Positions 3,473 to 38,495 of a stretch of DNA of 64,000 nucleotides are shown one piece after another (positions within the stretch are counted from its first letter, which is position 1; every line of letters begins with the position of its first letter). The notes under the pieces were generated by a model. It was not told where the DNA came from and searched no databases. It worked only from the letters and a program-made list of their open reading frames with translations. This DNA comes from Chitinophagales bacterium (GTDB lineage Bacteria > Bacteroidota > Bacteroidia > Chitinophagales > Saprospiraceae): contig JAAFIM010000016.1 of the NCBI GenBank assembly GCA_013297745.1, positions 1 through 64,000 of the forward strand, given 5' to 3'. Made by a program: the position numbers and the translations under genes.

Positions 3473-3490
3473 TGCGCAATTTTTACCTTC

Positions 3491-3691
3491 TTTTTTTGGG
3501 CAAACACATAGGTTTGCCCCTACATTATACACCTTTTCGGGCGAATACCTACGTTTATCCCCACGTTATGCACTTTTTTCGGGCGAATACCTACGTTTAT
3601 CCCCACGTTATGCACCTTTTTCGGGCAAACACCTACGTTTATCCCCACGTTATGCACTTTTTTCGGGCAAACACATAGGTTTTCCCCTACT
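3491..3691. repeat. Tandem array, 42-bp period, about five units
   Basis: The word CGGGC(G/A)AA recurs at 3538, 3580, 3622 and 3664, exactly 42 bp apart, with a more diverged first unit near 3497. The core is ACGTTTATCCCCACGTTATGCA. The first unit holds a clean hairpin GGGCAAAC-acatag-GTTTGCCC (about 3498-3519) that has decayed in later units. An open frame of 68 codons runs through it only because 42 is a multiple of three; it has no signal of coding. The rest of the 3316-3724 gap is AT-rich with no gene. Confidence 0.8.
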
Positions 3692-3724: not shown

Positions 3725-4465
3725 ATGCGCGCTGCTATCCCCAATACACTAACCCTGACCAATTTATTCTGTGGTTGTATGTGTCTAATCTGTATTTTTA
3801 CCCAACAAATTCAACTCTTACCCGTCTTTTTTGGCTTGGCTTTATTGATGGATTATGTGGATGGGTTTGTGGCTCGGGCGTTGAAAGTTAGCTCTGACTT
3901 GGGCAAAGAGTTAGATTCTTTGGCTGATATGGTTTCTTTCGGGGTAGTGCCTGGGGCTTTGTTTTATACCCTTTTGAATAATACCCAAAACGTCAGCAAT
4001 GCCAACTTTTCCCAACCTGATACTTTGTGGGGTTTGATAGGTTTTGTGGTAACATTATTCTCTTGTTTGCGATTAGCCAAATTTAATTTAGACGACCGCC
4101 AAGCTGATGCGTTTATAGGTTTGAATACGCCCTCTTGCACCACTTTTGTGATGGGGATAACCCTTTGTGTGCATTATCAAATATACGATTTACAAACCAT
4201 TATCTCCAATTTCTACCTGTTGGTAGGGCTGGTGCTGGTTTTGTCGTATCTATTGATTTCCGAGATACCTATGTTTAGCTTTAAGTTCAAATCATTGGAT
4301 TGGAAAACAAACCGATTTAGATTCACTTTTATCGTGTGGGTGCTGCTGTCGTTGTTATTGTTGCCTTTGGGCTTGGCTATGGCGGCGGTGGTGTTGAGTT
4401 ATATTTTCTTTTCTATCATATTGTGGATTGGGGGCTATATTTCTATCCCTAAACGGGTAAAGTAG
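3725..4465 (+). CDS. pssA: CDP-diacylglycerol--serine O-phosphatidyltransferase
   Basis: Makes phosphatidylserine from CDP-diacylglycerol and serine at the inner membrane, the first committed step to phosphatidylethanolamine. The 246-aa protein carries the full CDP-alcohol phosphatidyltransferase motif: D43, D46-G47, A50-R51, G60, D64, D68, within DYVDGFVAR...GKELDSLAD. It is followed by SFG, typical of the PssA branch. Six or so hydrophobic segments span the rest (for example 80-105, 135-155, 160-185, 200-240). Length fits the family. It starts at ATG 3725 after the repeat array and is apparently transcribed alone. PS synthase rather than PGP synthase is chosen from the N-terminal IPNTLTLTNLFCG and the SFG context. 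Confidence 0.92.
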   Translation: MRAAIPNTLTLTNLFCGCMCLICIFTQQIQLLPVFFGLALLMDYVDGFVARALKVSSDLGKELDSLADMVSFGVVPGALFYTLLNNTQNVSNANFSQPDTLWGLIGFVVTLFSCLRLAKFNLDDRQADAFIGLNTPSCTTFVMGITLCVHYQIYDLQTIISNFYLLVGLVLVLSYLLISEIPMFSFKFKSLDWKTNRFRFTFIVWVLLSLLLLPLGLAMAAVVLSYIFFSIILWIGGYISIPKRVK

Positions 4466-4744
4466 TGATTAGTTGTTAGTTATTAATTGTTAATGGTTAG
4501 TTTATAAATTAATACATTCTCACAACAATTAAATAGCTGCTAATCGCTAACAACAACAGGTAAAATAATTATCAATTATTAGTTGTTAATGATTAATGGT
4601 TAGTTTGTAAATTAATACCATTTTTTACAACAATTAAATAGCTTCTAATCGCTAACCGCTAACAATTGATAATTAACCGCCAATAATTGATAATTAACCG
4701 CTAACAATTGATAATTAACCATTAACAATTAACCATTAAAAACT
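4466..4744. repeat. AT-rich degenerate direct and inverted word repeats
   Basis: The 279-bp spacer between pssA and pncB consists of variants of TTAGTTGTTAGTGATTAATGG on the left and TAACAATTGATAATTAACC on the right, so the halves are roughly complementary. Similar words follow pncB (6158-6195) and fill the MbnP-MbnH spacer. No gene, promoter or terminator is evident. Confidence 0.6.
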
Positions 4745-6455: not shown

Positions 6456-6640
6456 CGCCTCAATTTCTTTGCGGTACGGGTCAATTTCTCTGCAGTTCGG
6501 GTTAATTTCTTTGCGATACGCTGCCATTGCGTCAGGTTACGGGTTGATTTCTTTACGGTTCGGGTTAATTTCTTTGCGATACGCTGCCATTTCGTCAGGT
6601 TACGGGTCGATTTCTCTGCAGTCCGAGTTGATTTATTTTT
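6456..6640. repeat. 21-bp minisatellite, first family
   Basis: Degenerate units of the form (A/G)ATTTCTTTGCGGTACGGGTT repeat every 21 bp. Pairs of them form a 42-bp higher-order unit with the insert ATACGCTGCCATTGCGTCAGG. The multiple-of-three period leaves long frames open on both strands: 82 codons on the minus strand (Lys/Thr/Arg heptads) and 63 on the plus strand. I do not regard either as a gene, because both consist almost wholly of the repeat. Confidence 0.75.
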
Positions 6641-6649
6641 TCGCGGTCG

Positions 6650-6733
6650 GTTTGGATTGAGTAGCGGTCGGTTTAGATTAGATAGCAATTAGTTTGGATT
6701 AGATAACAATTAGTTTGGATTAAATAGCGGCTT
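6650..6733. repeat. 21-bp minisatellite, second family
   Basis: Four units of GTTTGGATTAGATAACAATTA at 6650, 6671, 6692 and 6713, exactly 21 bp apart. The word differs from the adjacent array but the period is the same. The remaining sequence to 6850 is AT-rich and holds no gene. Confidence 0.8.
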
Positions 6734-32347: not shown

Positions 32348-35300
32348 ATGAAAATATATAATTTTACCAAAATGTGGCAAGCCACAGCGCAGCCACAGCG
32401 CAGCCACAGCGCAGCCACAGCGCAGCCACAGCGCAGCGCCCAATCTTTATTGTCTAATTTTTTAAACGTTGGACTTATGGCAATTTTTTTATTGTTAGGC
32501 GTAAGCCAAAGCGTAGGGCAAACAGGTATTAACTGTTTATCTGTAACCAAAGCGGTCAATGTAGCTACTGCATCAGAGGGAAATTTTGTAAAATACGAAA
32601 TTACTGTTTGTAATACTTGCAATACAGCAGCTAATAACATAACAGTTTCTGATGTATTGCCGCGTGGCTTGCTATTTCAGACATCTGCTAACTTAAACTA
32701 TGCAAATCAAACAGTAAGCAGCACTTTTAATTTAGCTCCTAATAGTTGCCAAACGTTTAAATACGATGTATTGGTTTTGTTAGCGACTTGTGCCAATAAT
32801 AGAAATGTAGGCAATCGCGCTCGTATCAATTACAATAATCAAAATAGAAATTCCAATAATGCAAATTTTACGCTTGTGGATGTTAGCGCACCTAATTGTC
32901 AGCCTGCCAACTTTAGCTATACACTAAGCCAAGCTATAGAATGTGGGCTTTTGTTGCCTGCTGCTCAATCCGTAAATACTGCTCAAAACGTAATTTTAGG
33001 CGGCAATTTAATCATGGATAAAAACTATACGTTTCTTGCAAGACTTGATATGAAAGCTGGTGCGCAAATCAATGTATTAAATGGGGTTAATGTAAATATC
33101 CTTTCTTCCACTATTGGTGGTGCTTGTCAAAATTGTATGTGGCGCGGTTTTGTATTAGAAAGTAAAGCCAACGTAGTAGTTGGTGCTTTGAGTGGCAACG
33201 GAGCAAGTGAAATATCAGCAGCGCAATATGGTTTTGAATTAAAGAGTGATGCCCAATTGGCTTTAAATGGGGTAGACCTTAGAGATAATTTTGTAGATGT
33301 GTATATGGCACCGCTTAATAATCCTGTTTTGCAAGCACCACAGCGTTTAAATTTAAAAACAGGCAGAATAAGAACTTCAAGTAATTTTATGCAAAAACCG
33401 TTTATTGGTATAATCCCTACACCTGTACAAAGAACTAATCCGTTGGGAGGTTTATTAAATAATCCTGCGCCTGCTGTGCCTATTGCCACAAAAAGCGGTT
33501 TAGCATCTATTTACGTATCTGATGCGGAGATATTAGATGTTAGAGTTCAAAATTCTGCATTACCTTTTAATCAATTTTTTGAAATGGCAGATTGTATGAG
33601 TGGTATAGTAGCTGTGCGGGTAGGAAAAGTGTTTGCTAATTCAAATTCCTATATTCGCATAAATGAAGACATAGCCTACAACACGGGTGGAAATATCGCT
33701 TGGCAAGGCACAGGTTTATACGCACAAGGCGTAGCTAATAGCGCAGCGTATAATGTAGATGTAACAAATACAGCAGCTTTTCTAACTCACGAACGCTGCG
33801 ATAATGGTGTAGTAGGGCGTTCTGTCAATATGATTGTGCGCGGGCAAAATATGCGCAACATTAGTAAAGCGGGCATAACCTCTCGCTTAGCTGTCAATTG
33901 CACCGTCATATTAGAAAGTAATCAACTAAATTGCCAAACTACAGGCATTGATTTATTGTTTAATGACCCAGCCGCCAAAATAGAAGCCAAAGGCAACAGC
34001 ATAAGCGTAACGCCCCCGAGTACTTTTACGGGTACAACGGCAGCTATCCGTATATTGGAAGGGGGAAACGCCTACAATAACTTAGATATACAAAATAATA
34101 CGCTGGTATGCAATAACGCCCGCGCCCAAGTAGGCTTATTGGTGAATGGACACACTGGAGGCAAGATATTCAACAACGATGTATATTTACAAGGTACTGG
34201 CAATAGCCCCTTTTTCCCTAATTCTATACGTACAGCTATGGGCTTCCAAAATACCAATACGGATATAGATTGCAATAGTGTAAATCCAAGCGGTACAGGC
34301 ATCAATAGCGGCAATAATACCAGAATACAAAATATAATGGCTATCAATATAAGCGGCGCAAGTGGCGGGCGGCTATCTTGCAATACAGTAGATAGAACTT
34401 TTGGTGGGATACGATTTGAAAATACTAATACTATGCTCGTACAAGGCAATGTACTACAAGACCATACCTATGGGCTTTGGTTCACGCCTAATGCTGCACT
34501 TAATCCACAATTTTTTACAGGTAATAGATTTATAGGTACAAATATACCTAATAACGGGTTTGAGGCGTATAATCAAAGTATAGGAATGGGTGGGCAATTT
34601 AAATATAGTCCCACAGCTACGGCAGATTTAATACCTTTTCCACAAGGAGGAATAAACGCTTTATTTGTAACGCAGCTAACAACAAATAGTGATTTTAATT
34701 GTAACATCATTAGTCCTGTCTGGGCTGGTTGTGGTTTAGACGTATTTCGTTTAGCGGCTATTGACGATAAAGATAGAGCAGTAGCCAATGGCAGTTATGC
34801 AGCCACTAATCAAGCGGATATGTTTGAGAATAAAAAACAACTGTATAGAAAATTGCGCCGACATAATTATCTATTGCAAAATGAGCCTACTATGCAGCAA
34901 TTTGACAATACAGAAAGCCAAACCAATATAGGGGCGTTTGATTGGGTAAATACAGAAACGGCAACAGTTTTGCGCTTGGATAGTTTGGATAGTCTGCAAA
35001 TACAAAACTATCAAAATCAAGCCTTGTCTTTGTTGGATTCTATGGCTTTATTGGATAGTTTGCGCGCTTGGGCTGCTGCCAACAACACCACGCAGCGCGA
35101 TAATTTATCTGCACAGTGGGTAACTTTGCAACAACAACAAAACGCACTTTGCCAAAATAAGAAAATGCAACAAGTGCAGGCTATTGATGCGCAGCTACTG
35201 CCAGCTAATCAGGCTATAAATGCTGTGCTTGACCACGAAACCGCAGAAAAATTGGTGAATGAAATCTATCTACAAACTTTAGCCAAAGGTATAGATGTGT

Positions 35301-35737
35301 ATAATAGCAATCAAGAACAAACGCTACAATTAATAAGCGCGCAATGTCCCGATGTATTGGGTACTGTCGTGTACAAAGCCCGCGCTATGTACGCAATGGC
35401 TGCCTATGTGGATATGTTTGATAAATCGGCTTGTGTAAGTGCTAATAATTTGGAGGCACAACCTACAAATGTAACGGAAACGGTAGCAGAAAGTGCTGTT
35501 TTACTGTATCCGAACCCTGCCCAAGATATGTTAATTTTGCAAAATAATATAGCTTTTGAAGAGGGTACTATTGTAGAAATTTATAATAGTTTAGGCCAAC
35601 TTATGCAGACACAAAATATAACAACTCCGAGCCAAAGAGTAGAACTTAATGTATCTACTTTTTCAAATGGTAGCTATTTTGTGCGTATTAGCAACGGCGA
35701 AACTGTATTATCTAAATTATTCATCATTTCTAAATAA
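32348..35737 (+). CDS. Large T9SS surface protein: DUF11-like domain, beta-helix, type A sorting domain
   Basis: 1129 aa from ATG 32348. Residues 12-32 are encoded by five 11-bp repeats (ATAQPQRS twice). A signal-peptide core follows at about 37-57 (MAIFLLLGVSQSVGQ). A DUF11-like domain lies at about 60-180 (NNITVSDVLPRGLLF), then a parallel beta-helix region (about 200-800) rich in Asn and short strands such as IFNNDVYL and GIRFENTNTMLVQGN. A helical Gln/Leu-rich part (about 830-1030) precedes the type A sorting domain (AVLLYPNPAQDMLILQ, SLGQLMQTQ, NGSYFVRISNG). By family it should be displayed at the surface by the T9SS. The n-region is unusually long because of the repeat. Confidence 0.88.
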   Translation: MKIYNFTKMWQATAQPQRSHSAATAQPQRSAQSLLSNFLNVGLMAIFLLLGVSQSVGQTGINCLSVTKAVNVATASEGNFVKYEITVCNTCNTAANNITVSDVLPRGLLFQTSANLNYANQTVSSTFNLAPNSCQTFKYDVLVLLATCANNRNVGNRARINYNNQNRNSNNANFTLVDVSAPNCQPANFSYTLSQAIECGLLLPAAQSVNTAQNVILGGNLIMDKNYTFLARLDMKAGAQINVLNGVNVNILSSTIGGACQNCMWRGFVLESKANVVVGALSGNGASEISAAQYGFELKSDAQLALNGVDLRDNFVDVYMAPLNNPVLQAPQRLNLKTGRIRTSSNFMQKPFIGIIPTPVQRTNPLGGLLNNPAPAVPIATKSGLASIYVSDAEILDVRVQNSALPFNQFFEMADCMSGIVAVRVGKVFANSNSYIRINEDIAYNTGGNIAWQGTGLYAQGVANSAAYNVDVTNTAAFLTHERCDNGVVGRSVNMIVRGQNMRNISKAGITSRLAVNCTVILESNQLNCQTTGIDLLFNDPAAKIEAKGNSISVTPPSTFTGTTAAIRILEGGNAYNNLDIQNNTLVCNNARAQVGLLVNGHTGGKIFNNDVYLQGTGNSPFFPNSIRTAMGFQNTNTDIDCNSVNPSGTGINSGNNTRIQNIMAINISGASGGRLSCNTVDRTFGGIRFENTNTMLVQGNVLQDHTYGLWFTPNAALNPQFFTGNRFIGTNIPNNGFEAYNQSIGMGGQFKYSPTATADLIPFPQGGINALFVTQLTTNSDFNCNIISPVWAGCGLDVFRLAAIDDKDRAVANGSYAATNQADMFENKKQLYRKLRRHNYLLQNEPTMQQFDNTESQTNIGAFDWVNTETATVLRLDSLDSLQIQNYQNQALSLLDSMALLDSLRAWAAANNTTQRDNLSAQWVTLQQQQNALCQNKKMQQVQAIDAQLLPANQAINAVLDHETAEKLVNEIYLQTLAKGIDVYNSNQEQTLQLISAQCPDVLGTVVYKARAMYAMAAYVDMFDKSACVSANNLEAQPTNVTETVAESAVLLYPNPAQDMLILQNNIAFEEGTIVEIYNSLGQLMQTQNITTPSQRVELNVSTFSNGSYFVRISNGETVLSKLFIISK
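32381..32435 (+). repeat. 11-bp tandem repeat (five exact copies) within the start region
   Basis: GCCACAGCGCA at 32381, 32392, 32403, 32414 and 32425, perfectly tandem, 33 bp after the ATG and before the signal-peptide core. Eleven is not a multiple of three, so gain or loss of one unit shifts the frame. Confidence 0.9.
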
Positions 35738-35798: not shown

Positions 35799-37289
35799 AT
35801 GAAATACGCATTTTTATTTTGTTTGATACTAAATAGTTTATCATATGCTCAGCAATATGATAACAACGTCATCATTAGATATGGATTTGGAGGCTCAAAT
35901 TCTACCAAGTTATCTTTTAATAACGATAGTCTGTACGTAGATACTAATTTTATTTGTAATAATTTACCTGTTTGTAATACTTTGCTTTCTATGTCAGACG
36001 CCAACGGGGATTTTATTTTTTATACCAATGGTATCTATGTGCATAATGCCAACTGCCAAAAAATAAACAGTGCAGATACCAATAAACTAAATCCTGGTCT
36101 TTATACTAATCTATGGGAGCCTTGTGGGCTTGATTTTATGCGTAGTATGTTGTCTTTGCCACATACAGATTCAAGTAATTTGTATTATTTGTTTCATACT
36201 TCTGCTGACTTCAACAATGGAGGATGGGGCGAGCTTTTTTATTATACGCTGATAGATATGGCAGATGCAAGCGGCTATATTCGGGCTAAAAATCAAATTA
36301 TGTTATCTGCGCCTGATAGTTTTGCAGCGCATAGTTTTCCTGTTGCGACTAAACACGCCAACGGTAAAGACTGGTGGTTGGTCATACCAGCAGTAAGCCA
36401 CCAAAGGGCTTTTTATAGCTTTTTGATAAAAGGCGATAGTATTATTAGACAGCCCACGCAAGTAATGGCTGATACTTTTGTACATTCAGGCATTGCCAAA
36501 GAATTTACCTTTAATCATAAAGGCGATAAACTTATCTATTTTGGATACAGAAACCAGTTGCAAATTTATGATTTTAATAGATGTACAGGAGCTATTAGTC
36601 TTGCTGCTAATATATTTGTGGAAGATACAACTGCGAATAGAGATTTACTATATGGTGGTGCTGCTGTATCTGCCAATGATAGGTTTTTGTATTTGGGTAC
36701 AAAGTGGCATATTTTACAATATGATTTAGAAGCTGTGGATATAGCAGCCAGCAAAGAAATTGTGGCGACTTACAACAATTGGAACGTAATGCACCAATTT
36801 GGTTTTCCTCGTTTAGCGGCTATGCCAGACGGTAAAATATATGGTCATTTTGACCCTTCTTATTTGCACGTAATAGATAGTCCTAACCTAAAAGGTATGG
36901 CTTGTAATGTAAGGCAAAGAGCTATTTATGTGGGACAGTATTTAGGGTGGAATGATGTATTAGTTACGTATCCCAACTATCGCTTAGGTGCAGATACAAG
37001 CTGCTGGCAGGGTACTGCTGTGCATAGTGTAGCGGAAAGGGCTAACGATATTATTTTATATCCAAACCCTGCGCGCACGGTTATTTATTTGCAAAGTGAT
37101 TTGGCTATGGGCGAAAATACCAAAATTTTTATCTATAATCAGTTGGGGCAGTTGCTAAAAACTGTAATTGTAGAAAATGCTAGCACTTTGTTAGAAATCA
37201 ATGTAGCCGATTTGCCCAATGGGGCGTATACTGTGCGCATAGATAGCAAGCTGACAACTGTAAGTATGCAGTTTAGTATTGATAGATGA
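35799..37289 (+). CDS. Secreted T9SS type A protein with beta-propeller-like body
   Basis: 496 aa from ATG 35799. This start is chosen because AAAGGAGGA stands 6-8 bp before it and it begins a signal peptide (MKYAFLFCLILNSLSYAQ); the upstream extension overlaps the previous gene and the terminator. The body (about 20-415) has repeated blade-like stretches (CNTLLSMSDANGDFIFYTNG, AAMPDGKIYGHFD), suggesting a beta-propeller. The tail is a type A sorting domain (DIILYPNPARTVIYLQ, QLGQLLKTV, LPNGAYTVRI). The purine-rich Shine-Dalgarno is unusually strong for this phylum. Function unknown. Confidence 0.85.
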   Translation: MKYAFLFCLILNSLSYAQQYDNNVIIRYGFGGSNSTKLSFNNDSLYVDTNFICNNLPVCNTLLSMSDANGDFIFYTNGIYVHNANCQKINSADTNKLNPGLYTNLWEPCGLDFMRSMLSLPHTDSSNLYYLFHTSADFNNGGWGELFYYTLIDMADASGYIRAKNQIMLSAPDSFAAHSFPVATKHANGKDWWLVIPAVSHQRAFYSFLIKGDSIIRQPTQVMADTFVHSGIAKEFTFNHKGDKLIYFGYRNQLQIYDFNRCTGAISLAANIFVEDTTANRDLLYGGAAVSANDRFLYLGTKWHILQYDLEAVDIAASKEIVATYNNWNVMHQFGFPRLAAMPDGKIYGHFDPSYLHVIDSPNLKGMACNVRQRAIYVGQYLGWNDVLVTYPNYRLGADTSCWQGTAVHSVAERANDIILYPNPARTVIYLQSDLAMGENTKIFIYNQLGQLLKTVIVENASTLLEINVADLPNGAYTVRIDSKLTTVSMQFSIDR

Positions 37290-37365
37290 TAAATGTATAA
37301 GGGTGTAAAATAAATTATTTGTGGTTATACGACATTCAAAAAATTGGCGGCGTTGGTGTAGAGAC

Positions 37366-37382
37366 GAAACGTATTGCGTTTC
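37366..37382. repeat. Small hairpin
   Basis: GAAACG-tattg-CGTTTC within GTAGAGACGAAACG, a 6-bp perfect stem. It lies between the end of the 496-aa gene and the dyad array; the rest of 37290-37430 shows nothing else. Confidence 0.5.
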
Positions 37383-37427
37383 CGCTAAATTATGGGTCTA
37401 AAATTTATTTTTAAGCCCATAATTATT

Positions 37428-37650
37428 TTGTTGGTGGTATTCATATCCTGTACGAAGCCTATAATTATTTTGTCGGTGGTATTCGTATCCTGTACGAAGC
37501 CTATAATTTTTTTGTCGGTGGTATTCATATCCTGTACGAAGCCCATAATTATTTTGTCTGTGGTATTCATATCCTGTACGAAGCCCATAATTATTTTGTC
37601 GGTGGTATTCATATCCTGTACGAAGCCTATAATTATTTTGTCAGTGGTAT
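37428..37650. promoter_or_regulatory. Array of five phased dyads, 42-bp period (putative enhancer)
   Basis: Each 42-bp unit (TTGTCGGTGGTATTC...GAAGCC.ATAATTATT) contains a 17-bp dyad TTC(A/G)TA-TCCTG-TACGAA. Dyads sit at 37440, 37482, 37524, 37566 and 37608, exactly 42 bp apart. The second is a perfect palindrome, the others have one mismatch. A sixth unit has decayed at 37650. The last dyad is 60 bp from the sigma54 element. Frames on both strands stay open only because 42 is a multiple of three. Enhancer function is an inference. Confidence 0.75.
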
Positions 37651-37683
37651 TAATTTTAAAAAAAATAGCAAAAAAATAATTAT

Positions 37684-37700
37684 TTGGCACGATTTTTGCT
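37684..37700 (+). promoter_or_regulatory. Sigma54 (RpoN) promoter, perfect -24/-12 match
   Basis: TTGGCACGATTTTTGCT fits YTGGCACG-N4-TTGCW at every fixed position. The GG and GC are 12 bp apart as required. The transcript would begin about 37711, 44 nt before ATG 37755. Known sigma54 promoters need upstream activator sites, which the adjacent dyad array could provide. Confidence 0.8.
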
Positions 37701-37754
37701 GTGTTTAAAAACAAATTTACAACATTTTTTAACAACTTTTATAATTTTCAAATT

Positions 37755-38495
37755 ATGGAAAAAAAACCAAAATTGGAAGAAAATCTAACAACCGAAAATA
37801 AGAAGGTTAAATTAGACAACAATCCCAAAGTCAAATCTGTAAGCAAAATTCCCCAACAACAAGCTAATTCAGCTTTATTATGTTTGGAAATTAGCAGACG
37901 TTGGGCTAATAATCACGCACAATGGCAAACGCCTTTTGCAGACGCTGGCTTAATGCAGCGAGAAGGGCAAACACTGGCTACTTTATTGCAAGAAGTAGAT
38001 GCTAACGAAACCAGCAAAAAACGAAATACTCAAGCGCTAAAAGATGCTAATTTAGCCATCAATAAAGCTGTGTCTAAACTTAAAGCGTATATAAAAACTG
38101 AATACGATAACAGTAAAGACTGGGACGAGTATTTTAAAGAATACGGTTTAGAACCAAACAAAAACAACATTTATATTTTATTATCTGATAATGCTTTGCG
38201 CCAAGTAGCTTTGCAAAAACTAATCAATAAATTGCAAGAGCCAAACAATCCTTTTGCGAATAGAAGTTTGGGATTAGCACAATGGCAAAATTTGCAACGA
38301 ACCCACAATCAATTATGGGAAGAAAGCAACGATTTGCGCGGCAATCGCAGTTCTTTAACCCCAAAAGTGGGCGAACAGTACGCGAAAATACAAGAGTTGC
38401 TAAAAAAACTGCTTAAATATATAGATTTATCTTTTAATAAAGAACAGGCTACAGGCTTAAAGCGTAGTTTGGGCTTTTTAAAAGAAAGTTTTTAA
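37755..38495 (+). CDS. Helical cytosolic protein of unknown function behind a sigma54 promoter
   Basis: 246 aa from ATG 37755. The in-frame ATG at 37701 lies upstream of the expected sigma54 transcript start and is rejected. No family is recognised. The first ~30 residues are Lys/Glu/Asn-rich and probably disordered. The rest is predicted helical, with Leu/Ala heptad stretches (AINKAVSKLKAYIK, about 100-115; KIQELLKKLLKYIDLSF, about 215-235) and an aromatic motif ISRRWANNHAQWQ. No signal peptide or membrane segment, so cytosolic. It is monocistronic, with a bidirectional terminator after it. A stress or nutrient response role is plausible given sigma54 but unproven. Confidence 0.75.
   Translation: MEKKPKLEENLTTENKKVKLDNNPKVKSVSKIPQQQANSALLCLEISRRWANNHAQWQTPFADAGLMQREGQTLATLLQEVDANETSKKRNTQALKDANLAINKAVSKLKAYIKTEYDNSKDWDEYFKEYGLEPNKNNIYILLSDNALRQVALQKLINKLQEPNNPFANRSLGLAQWQNLQRTHNQLWEESNDLRGNRSSLTPKVGEQYAKIQELLKKLLKYIDLSFNKEQATGLKRSLGFLKESF

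Follow-up and report, generated by a model that had tools for sequence, protein, structure and literature searches.

Type III toxin-antitoxin loci carry a few repeats of ~35–50 bp upstream of a stand-alone gene, and the sequence of the repeat unit is variable. Repeats placed with helical phasing upstream of a −24/−12 promoter are likewise a feature of sigma54 enhancers, the UAS of bacterial enhancer-binding proteins. BrickBuilt of Porphyromonas gingivalis is a minisatellite/MITE, namely an intergenic tandem repeat with a 23-nt unit and inverted-repeat ends (PMC4596501). Intergenic arrays of the heptamer TAACTGA occur in Beggiatoaceae, Cyanobacteria and five Bacteroidetes, and have been proposed as regulator binding sites (PMC4679880).

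The arrays described here keep a period of ~42 (or 21) bp across many genomes, nearly all titled Bacteroidota, and their repeat sequence differs from gene to gene. The first of them lies in a 64,000-nucleotide stretch of DNA from a Chitinophagales bacterium (contig JAAFIM010000016.1, positions 1 to 64,000; hereafter the window), upstream of a gene whose family we call A:

37392-37414, no strand: incomplete first unit carrying the alternative half-unit GTCTAAAATTTATTTTTAA, which the related array of C16 (a contig of the same genome) also has
37413-37651, no strand: tandem array, 42 bp x 5.7 copies, 94% matches (TRF and sequence)
37684-37700, + strand: perfect sigma54 (−24/−12) element TTGGCAC-N5-TTGCT, exact match
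37755-38495, + strand: family A gene, 246 aa, N-terminus Lys-rich and predicted to be disordered, 14 members in the genome

A dispersed repeat of ~45–55 bp (GACATTCAAAAAATTGGCGG...GTAGAGACG..., 37321-37376), with 12 more copies in the genome among the candidates scored, lies between the upstream gene and the array.

B-DNA makes one turn in 10.5 bp, and 42 bp correspond to four turns and 21 bp to two. Five 17-mers, TTC(A/G)TA-TCCTG-TACGAA, occur in the window array at 37440, 37482, 37524, 37566 and 37608, spaced by exactly 42 bp. The repetition covers the entire 42-bp unit, beyond the 17-mer alone, and it is because of this whole-unit period that the 17-mer copies face one side. A sequence-only reading had described the 17-mers as five dyads; their sequence, positions and spacing are confirmed, but the dyad is not. 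Its arms match at 5/6 positions in four copies and at 6/6 in one (n = 5), and 76% of shuffled 42-mers hold a dyad at least as good as 5/6 with a loop of 0–8 (8% hold a 6/6 dyad). Two further tests of the symmetry of the window unit gave p = 0.56 (consensus test) and p = 0.758 (column test), and the 6-5-6 dyad is at chance level. The four-turn spacing that the same reading had singled out turned out to be the feature conserved across relatives. A repeat peptide was also considered and rejected: the 42-bp window array is open on both strands, yet the 41- and 43-bp arrays of paralogues shift the frame with each unit, so that coding cannot be a general property.

The sigma54 element lies 32 bp 3' of the array and 71 bp 5' of the ATG. 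It is an exact match, as first reported, and it proves to be the sole perfect site within the window, where 0.01 per strand is expected. The machinery that was to be looked for is present as well: the host genome (4.28 Mb searched, in 154 contigs) holds one copy of rpoN and four matches to the sigma54-activator domain PF00158 above 130 bits (three above 225, one of 133). Perfect sites number 25 genome-wide vs 1.3 expected from base composition, and sites with at most one mismatch number 156 vs 42 for the reversed pattern. The promoter side of the first reading is therefore well founded. Twelve of the 25 perfect sites lie inside open frames of at least 120 codons, and therefore not all need be promoters.

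These observations, together with the place of the array just upstream of the element, favour the original proposal that the array is a multi-site enhancer where an AAA+ activator, bound to the five dyads, would drive the promoter at 37684. So does the recurrence of sigma54-like sites (at least 9/10 matches, −140 to −35) at other family A genes of this genome and of Flavobacterium: such sites occur at 13/54 family A loci vs 3/101 other ORFs, 0/54 antisense controls and 0.8% of shuffles. In these cases the array lies upstream of the element, except at L120, where a weak site falls inside the last unit. The genome-wide distribution argues against the proposal. An array of the 21n/42 type lies within 700 bp upstream of only 3/25 perfect sites, each before a gene of family A or B (the window locus, a second family A gene on C89 and a family B gene on C150); the other 22 have no such array, one of them, L053, having an unrelated 139-bp duplication upstream. 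Conversely, all 14 family A genes of the genome have an array but only 2/14 a perfect element, and a good sigma54 site is missing from roughly three in four family A loci. The dyads that the activator would bind are at chance level in the window unit, and the arrays of paralogues are dissimilar, so that a few activators could hardly read all of them by one motif. The array is thus not specifically a sigma54 enhancer, and we consider the enhancer proposal unlikely for the window array; sigma54 is a recurrent partner of family A, mostly in this genome and in Flavobacterium.

The array accompanies the gene family rather than the promoter. In the host genome, each of the 14 family A paralogues is preceded by a tandem array of 41 bp (three arrays), 42 bp (seven) or 43 bp (four), with 2.6–8.4 copies, at a position between −814 and −104 from the ATG. 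No pair of these 14 arrays is similar at E ≤ 1e-4; three pairs reach 0.002–0.005 over 19–62 bp. A lag test was used to score more distant loci, in which the best identity at any lag of 10–140 is sought in a 60-bp window over 700 bp upstream and a locus passes if a multiple of 42 reaches at least 0.65, a threshold set after the first loci had been inspected. By this test 48/51 testable family A loci pass (14/14 in the host genome, 34/37 in other genomes), vs 5/272 uncurated background ORFs of at least 150 aa from a 400-kb sample of the host genome that was unmatched for intergenic length. The failures are L130, L138 and L154; L125, L131, L147 and L151 are marginal passes (0.65–0.68), and L157 passes only via a 14-bp repeat and is doubtful. 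Among other ORFs inside family A loci 8/64 pass, seven of them because the 700 bp upstream reaches the same array. The 51 loci exclude the fragments L155 and L158, and L144, L146 and L148, which have less than 500 bp upstream; L111, a different protein matched at E 8e-4, was removed from the set, L106-L109 and L114 are counted once, as L157, L138, L142, L119 and L140, and the Flavobacterium loci L124, L127, L134 and L137 within the count are close relatives.

A replication with criteria fixed beforehand gave 5/6 passes for family A, or 3/4 for new loci after removal of L188 and L189, which are 100% identical to the already counted L125 and L127. The replication is small; its criteria text specified full-length matches, and all loci outside the host genome were tested save L187 (= L119). 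At the missed locus the top three lags are 42, 84 and 126. The ~42-bp period is kept in other genera and orders. TRF alone overlooks several arrays, whose units are only ~65–75% identical, and the spacing there is still 42. Pooled autocorrelation of the family A arrays has a sharp peak at 42, with shoulders at 41 and 43 that come from arrays with those periods, and no sub-period of 7 or 10.5 bp. In 40 family A arrays delimited by hand, the distance from array to ATG ranges from 21 to 567 bp.

The association with arrays extends to a second family, B, found via genes that follow other arrays in the sampled DNA and having nine members in the host genome. Eight of these nine have an upstream array, of 21, 22, 42, 63 or 82 bp, and in other genomes of the order 17/20 testable loci pass at multiples of 21 (the host-genome background for 21- and 42-type lags together is 11/272). 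Pooled autocorrelation for family B peaks at 21, 42 and 63; lags of 20 and 22 show no signal. In a replication with criteria fixed beforehand, 12/19 family B loci pass and 7/19 fail; several of these loci are partial matches and many come from two genomes. A third case is DUF6261 (PF19775), tested after a marginal Pfam match: 4/8 loci (L226, L230, L232 and L233) have upstream arrays and pass, with lags of 41, 42, 82 and 83, and at a further locus of this set, L227, the start codon was not found.

These counts bear on the possibility that the array is a neutral minisatellite in a genome rich in repeats of 21-bp multiples, its link to the gene being a by-product of long unconstrained upstream regions. 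Tandem repeats are indeed many (in 464 kb of the genome, period 21 is the commonest, with 20/74 arrays), the arrays of the host genome are homogeneous, as if young, and some arrays lie near unrelated genes. A 42-bp array of 4.8 copies at 3490-3687 of the window lies 38 bp 5' of ORF 3725-4465, in which no family A similarity was seen and which we take to encode a CDP-alcohol phosphatidyltransferase, and another array lies beside an unrelated gene at C64:32279; some such arrays share units with family A arrays. The comparison of 48/51 family A loci with 5/272 background ORFs, the latter unmatched for intergenic length, contradicts the minisatellite feature of having no tie to gene identity, and the same period recurs across genera and orders. 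The existence of two families, each with its own period, and the replication results (3/4 new loci for family A, 12/19 for family B) argue in the same direction. The strongest argument against a neutral minisatellite is the conserved spacing in decayed arrays, whose units are only ~65–75% alike. A period that goes with the gene family is a poor fit to a neutral minisatellite, which we regard as very unlikely.

Further repeats occur in the window. Arrays with periods of 21, 42 and 63 lie at 4653-4739, 6460-6638 and 6643-6730, and an 11-bp repeat (AGCCACAGCGC, 5.3 perfect copies, 32380-32437) lies near the start of ORF 32348-35737, where a change in copy number would shift the reading frame.

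The proteins of the three families have no described function. The AlphaFold model of the window family A protein (pLDDT 85.6) is essentially all-helical and consists mostly of two 53-residue helices. Pfam and NCBIfam hold nothing above cut-off for family A and no known DNA-binding domain was found; a sequence search for solved relatives returned none, and a fold search of the PDB and viral models returned none at E ≤ 1e-3. The best VIA-align Z, 9.9, is in the range that the tool calls common for long helices. Two weak candidates for the window protein were set aside: PQLLE of NCBIfam (E 0.002, 17.7 of 80 bits, below cut-off) and HEC-01A, the best PADLOC match (E 9e-4, 16 bits). DUF6261 has at most marginal sequence homology to family A: hhalign of family A against PF19775 gave P of 0.0097 and 0.016 with a probability below 5%, and hmmscan gave E 0.23 for L065 and no match at E ≤ 1 for the window protein. 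The family B model combines a helical hairpin with an Fn3-like domain, and its solved relatives by sequence are three weak ones (best E 0.02). One family B member gave two matches below cut-off, to an ADP-ribosyltransferase exoenzyme (E 7e-4, 19.4 of 23.4 bits) and to MA-Mit; neither match was repeated in the other members scanned, and both were rejected.

A single-sequence search of 60 genomes, including the host's, found family A in the host genome only. A profile search found matches in 7/396 genomes of the order, counting the host genome and the weak L111 (another protein). A scan of 84,980 species genomes with one peptide pattern and tblastn yielded 40 family A loci, in records titled Bacteroidota or uncultured bacteria without lineage, whose taxa include Flavobacterium, Chitinophagaceae, Cytophagaceae, Prevotellaceae and Bacteroidales. 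Among the family A loci there is no viral contig and no plasmid or phage record, and family B has no plasmid record; a phage or plasmid origin was accordingly rejected. Apart from a single Flavobacterium group and certain large repetitive proteins, no neighbouring gene is common to three or more family A loci, and only the repetitive proteins span genera. The gene and its array are therefore the conserved unit.

A conserved unit of gene and array is also the layout of type III loci, and the array could be transcribed, fold, and bind the encoded protein as a repeat RNA in the manner of those systems. Single arrays do fold far better than their shuffles (L136, z −7.2; L113, z −4.3), but the mean z-score is only −0.58 on one strand and −0.65 on the other. 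Consensus scans of the 40 hand-delimited family A arrays, which were also those used in the consensus and column tests of symmetry, found terminator-like sites between array and ATG in 2/40 on the forward strand and in 5/40 in the reverse control. Within 37250-37800 of the window, a consensus scan found no terminator and Rfam gave no match, and no toxin family was found above cut-off. The position of the sigma54-like elements, downstream of the array, also argues against a repeat RNA.

Palindromes appear near-universal among the repeat units to the eye, but a universal dyad was rejected, the consensus test reaching p ≤ 0.05 in 7/40 family A arrays, and dyad symmetry is claimed solely for arrays that pass the test. 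By the column test, whose null shuffles columns without preserving runs of bases, 18/40 family A and 16/22 family B arrays reach p ≤ 0.05. Whole-unit symmetry at this level is found in other genomes in 15/15 family B and 15/26 family A arrays, and seldom in the host genome (3/14 for family A, 1/7 for family B); for family B the test used 15 of the 20 testable loci of other genomes and 7 of the 8 of the host. Mismatched dyad pairs are G-T in 43 and A-C in 58 cases for family A (a list of 18 arrays that includes L136, p = 0.20, and omits L143, p = 0.03), and G-T in 64 and A-C in 71 for family B (12/15 arrays listed). An RNA hairpin, being read from a single strand, should show more G-T than A-C, and no such excess is seen. 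We prefer a protein-bound DNA element to an RNA, and a repeat RNA of the type III kind appears quite improbable.

How the units diverge can be seen from three arrays with units in common with those of family A genes:

L014 (C16:7913-8165): orphan array
L084:12279-12464 (C64): orphan array
L023 from ~1592 (C3): orphan array

No family A gene is recognisable in the DNA examined around these arrays; C16 ends inside its array. The window array shares the constant part of its unit with the array at the end of C16; there, some of the remaining unit has given way to other sequence with no change in length, and both unit types are present, in variant form, at both loci. The L068 array is 80% alike to the array on C64 (157 bp), and the L074 array is 71% alike to that on C3 (190 bp), itself a mixture of two equally long unit types. 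Length is thus preserved where the sequence has changed. Occurrence of the same 42-bp array at many places without a sigma54 element had been named at the outset as what would mark it as a neutral minisatellite; with 40/126 candidates scored, the array on C16 is the one genomic relative found, and the feature of a MITE-type mobile repeat, the same sequence at many places, is absent.

The gene-family link, the conserved period, the dissimilar sequences, the dyads in many units of other genomes and the independence from sigma54 are observed. On this basis we propose that the window array is a helically phased protein-binding array that forms the upstream control region of the adjacent family A gene, an explanation to which we give about an even chance. 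Protein-binding sites would be set four helical turns apart (two in family B), which would place the bound proteins on a single face of the helix, where they would assemble in a row 5' of a promoter that is of the sigma54 type here and mostly not in the relatives. The row of bound proteins would then act as an activator or a repressor of the adjacent gene. Selection may hold the geometry, with a period of 41–43 bp and few insertions or deletions inside the array, and concerted evolution may turn over the unit sequence, giving each gene a unit of its own. Binding of protein to the array, its cooperativity and the regulation of the adjacent gene are the parts that we infer. Several results given above count against the proposal: the mostly asymmetric units of the host genome, the variable distance from array to ATG, the arrays beside unrelated genes, the lack of a known DNA-binding domain in family A, and the family A, family B and DUF6261 loci that fail the lag test.

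Since the sequence differs at each locus, the reader of such an array should either co-evolve with it or respond to its geometry. The encoded protein is therefore an obvious candidate binder, and another is a factor responding to DNA shape instead of sequence. We hypothesize, as a more specific and somewhat unlikely version of the proposed control region, that each array is recognised by the protein of the adjacent gene, making these loci self-recognising cassettes with a fixed four- or two-turn geometry and a freely co-evolving recognition sequence. If so, this genome would hold 14 family A and at least eight family B pairs with distinct specificities, and the few orphan arrays having a unit in common with a cassette could be its remote targets.

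An element whose period is conserved phylum-wide, whose sequence is free and which is tied to a gene family escapes standard motif and homology searches, and it would show selection on the geometry of DNA. The arrays offer a first functional handle on family A, family B and DUF6261, and natural variation supplies dozens of versions, some of them from named Flavobacterium species, with which to test what reads them.

Comparison with described systems places these arrays apart from each of them. They resemble sigma54 enhancers in having repeats upstream of a −24/−12 promoter with helical phasing, but follow a gene family with or without sigma54, and the arrays of paralogues have no common motif. 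With type III loci (ToxIN, CptIN and TenpIN) they share a short upstream tandem array, a stand-alone gene and a locus-specific unit, and differ in that no toxin homology above cut-off, no terminator excess and no RNA-type strand bias were found and the period is 41–43 bp. BrickBuilt is likewise an intergenic tandem repeat of the same phylum, but one unit sequence spread as an element, whereas here units differ and are linked to gene families (PMC4596501). The TAACTGA arrays are direct repeats upstream of genes as well, although they consist of one fixed heptamer beside many kinds of gene (PMC4679880), and the arrays here have no 7-bp sub-period. DUF6261 resembles family A in being a Bacteroidota protein of ~240 aa with arrays upstream in 4/8 loci, though its sequence homology is only marginal by the hhalign values given above. 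In the open-licence literature, a partial collection, we found no account of arrays that accompany gene families with a fixed period but a variable sequence. For each of the four classes considered, sigma54 enhancers, type III loci, neutral minisatellites and MITE-type repeats, at least one feature that was tested does not fit, and we rate the pattern as new in kind and its mechanism as a proposal.
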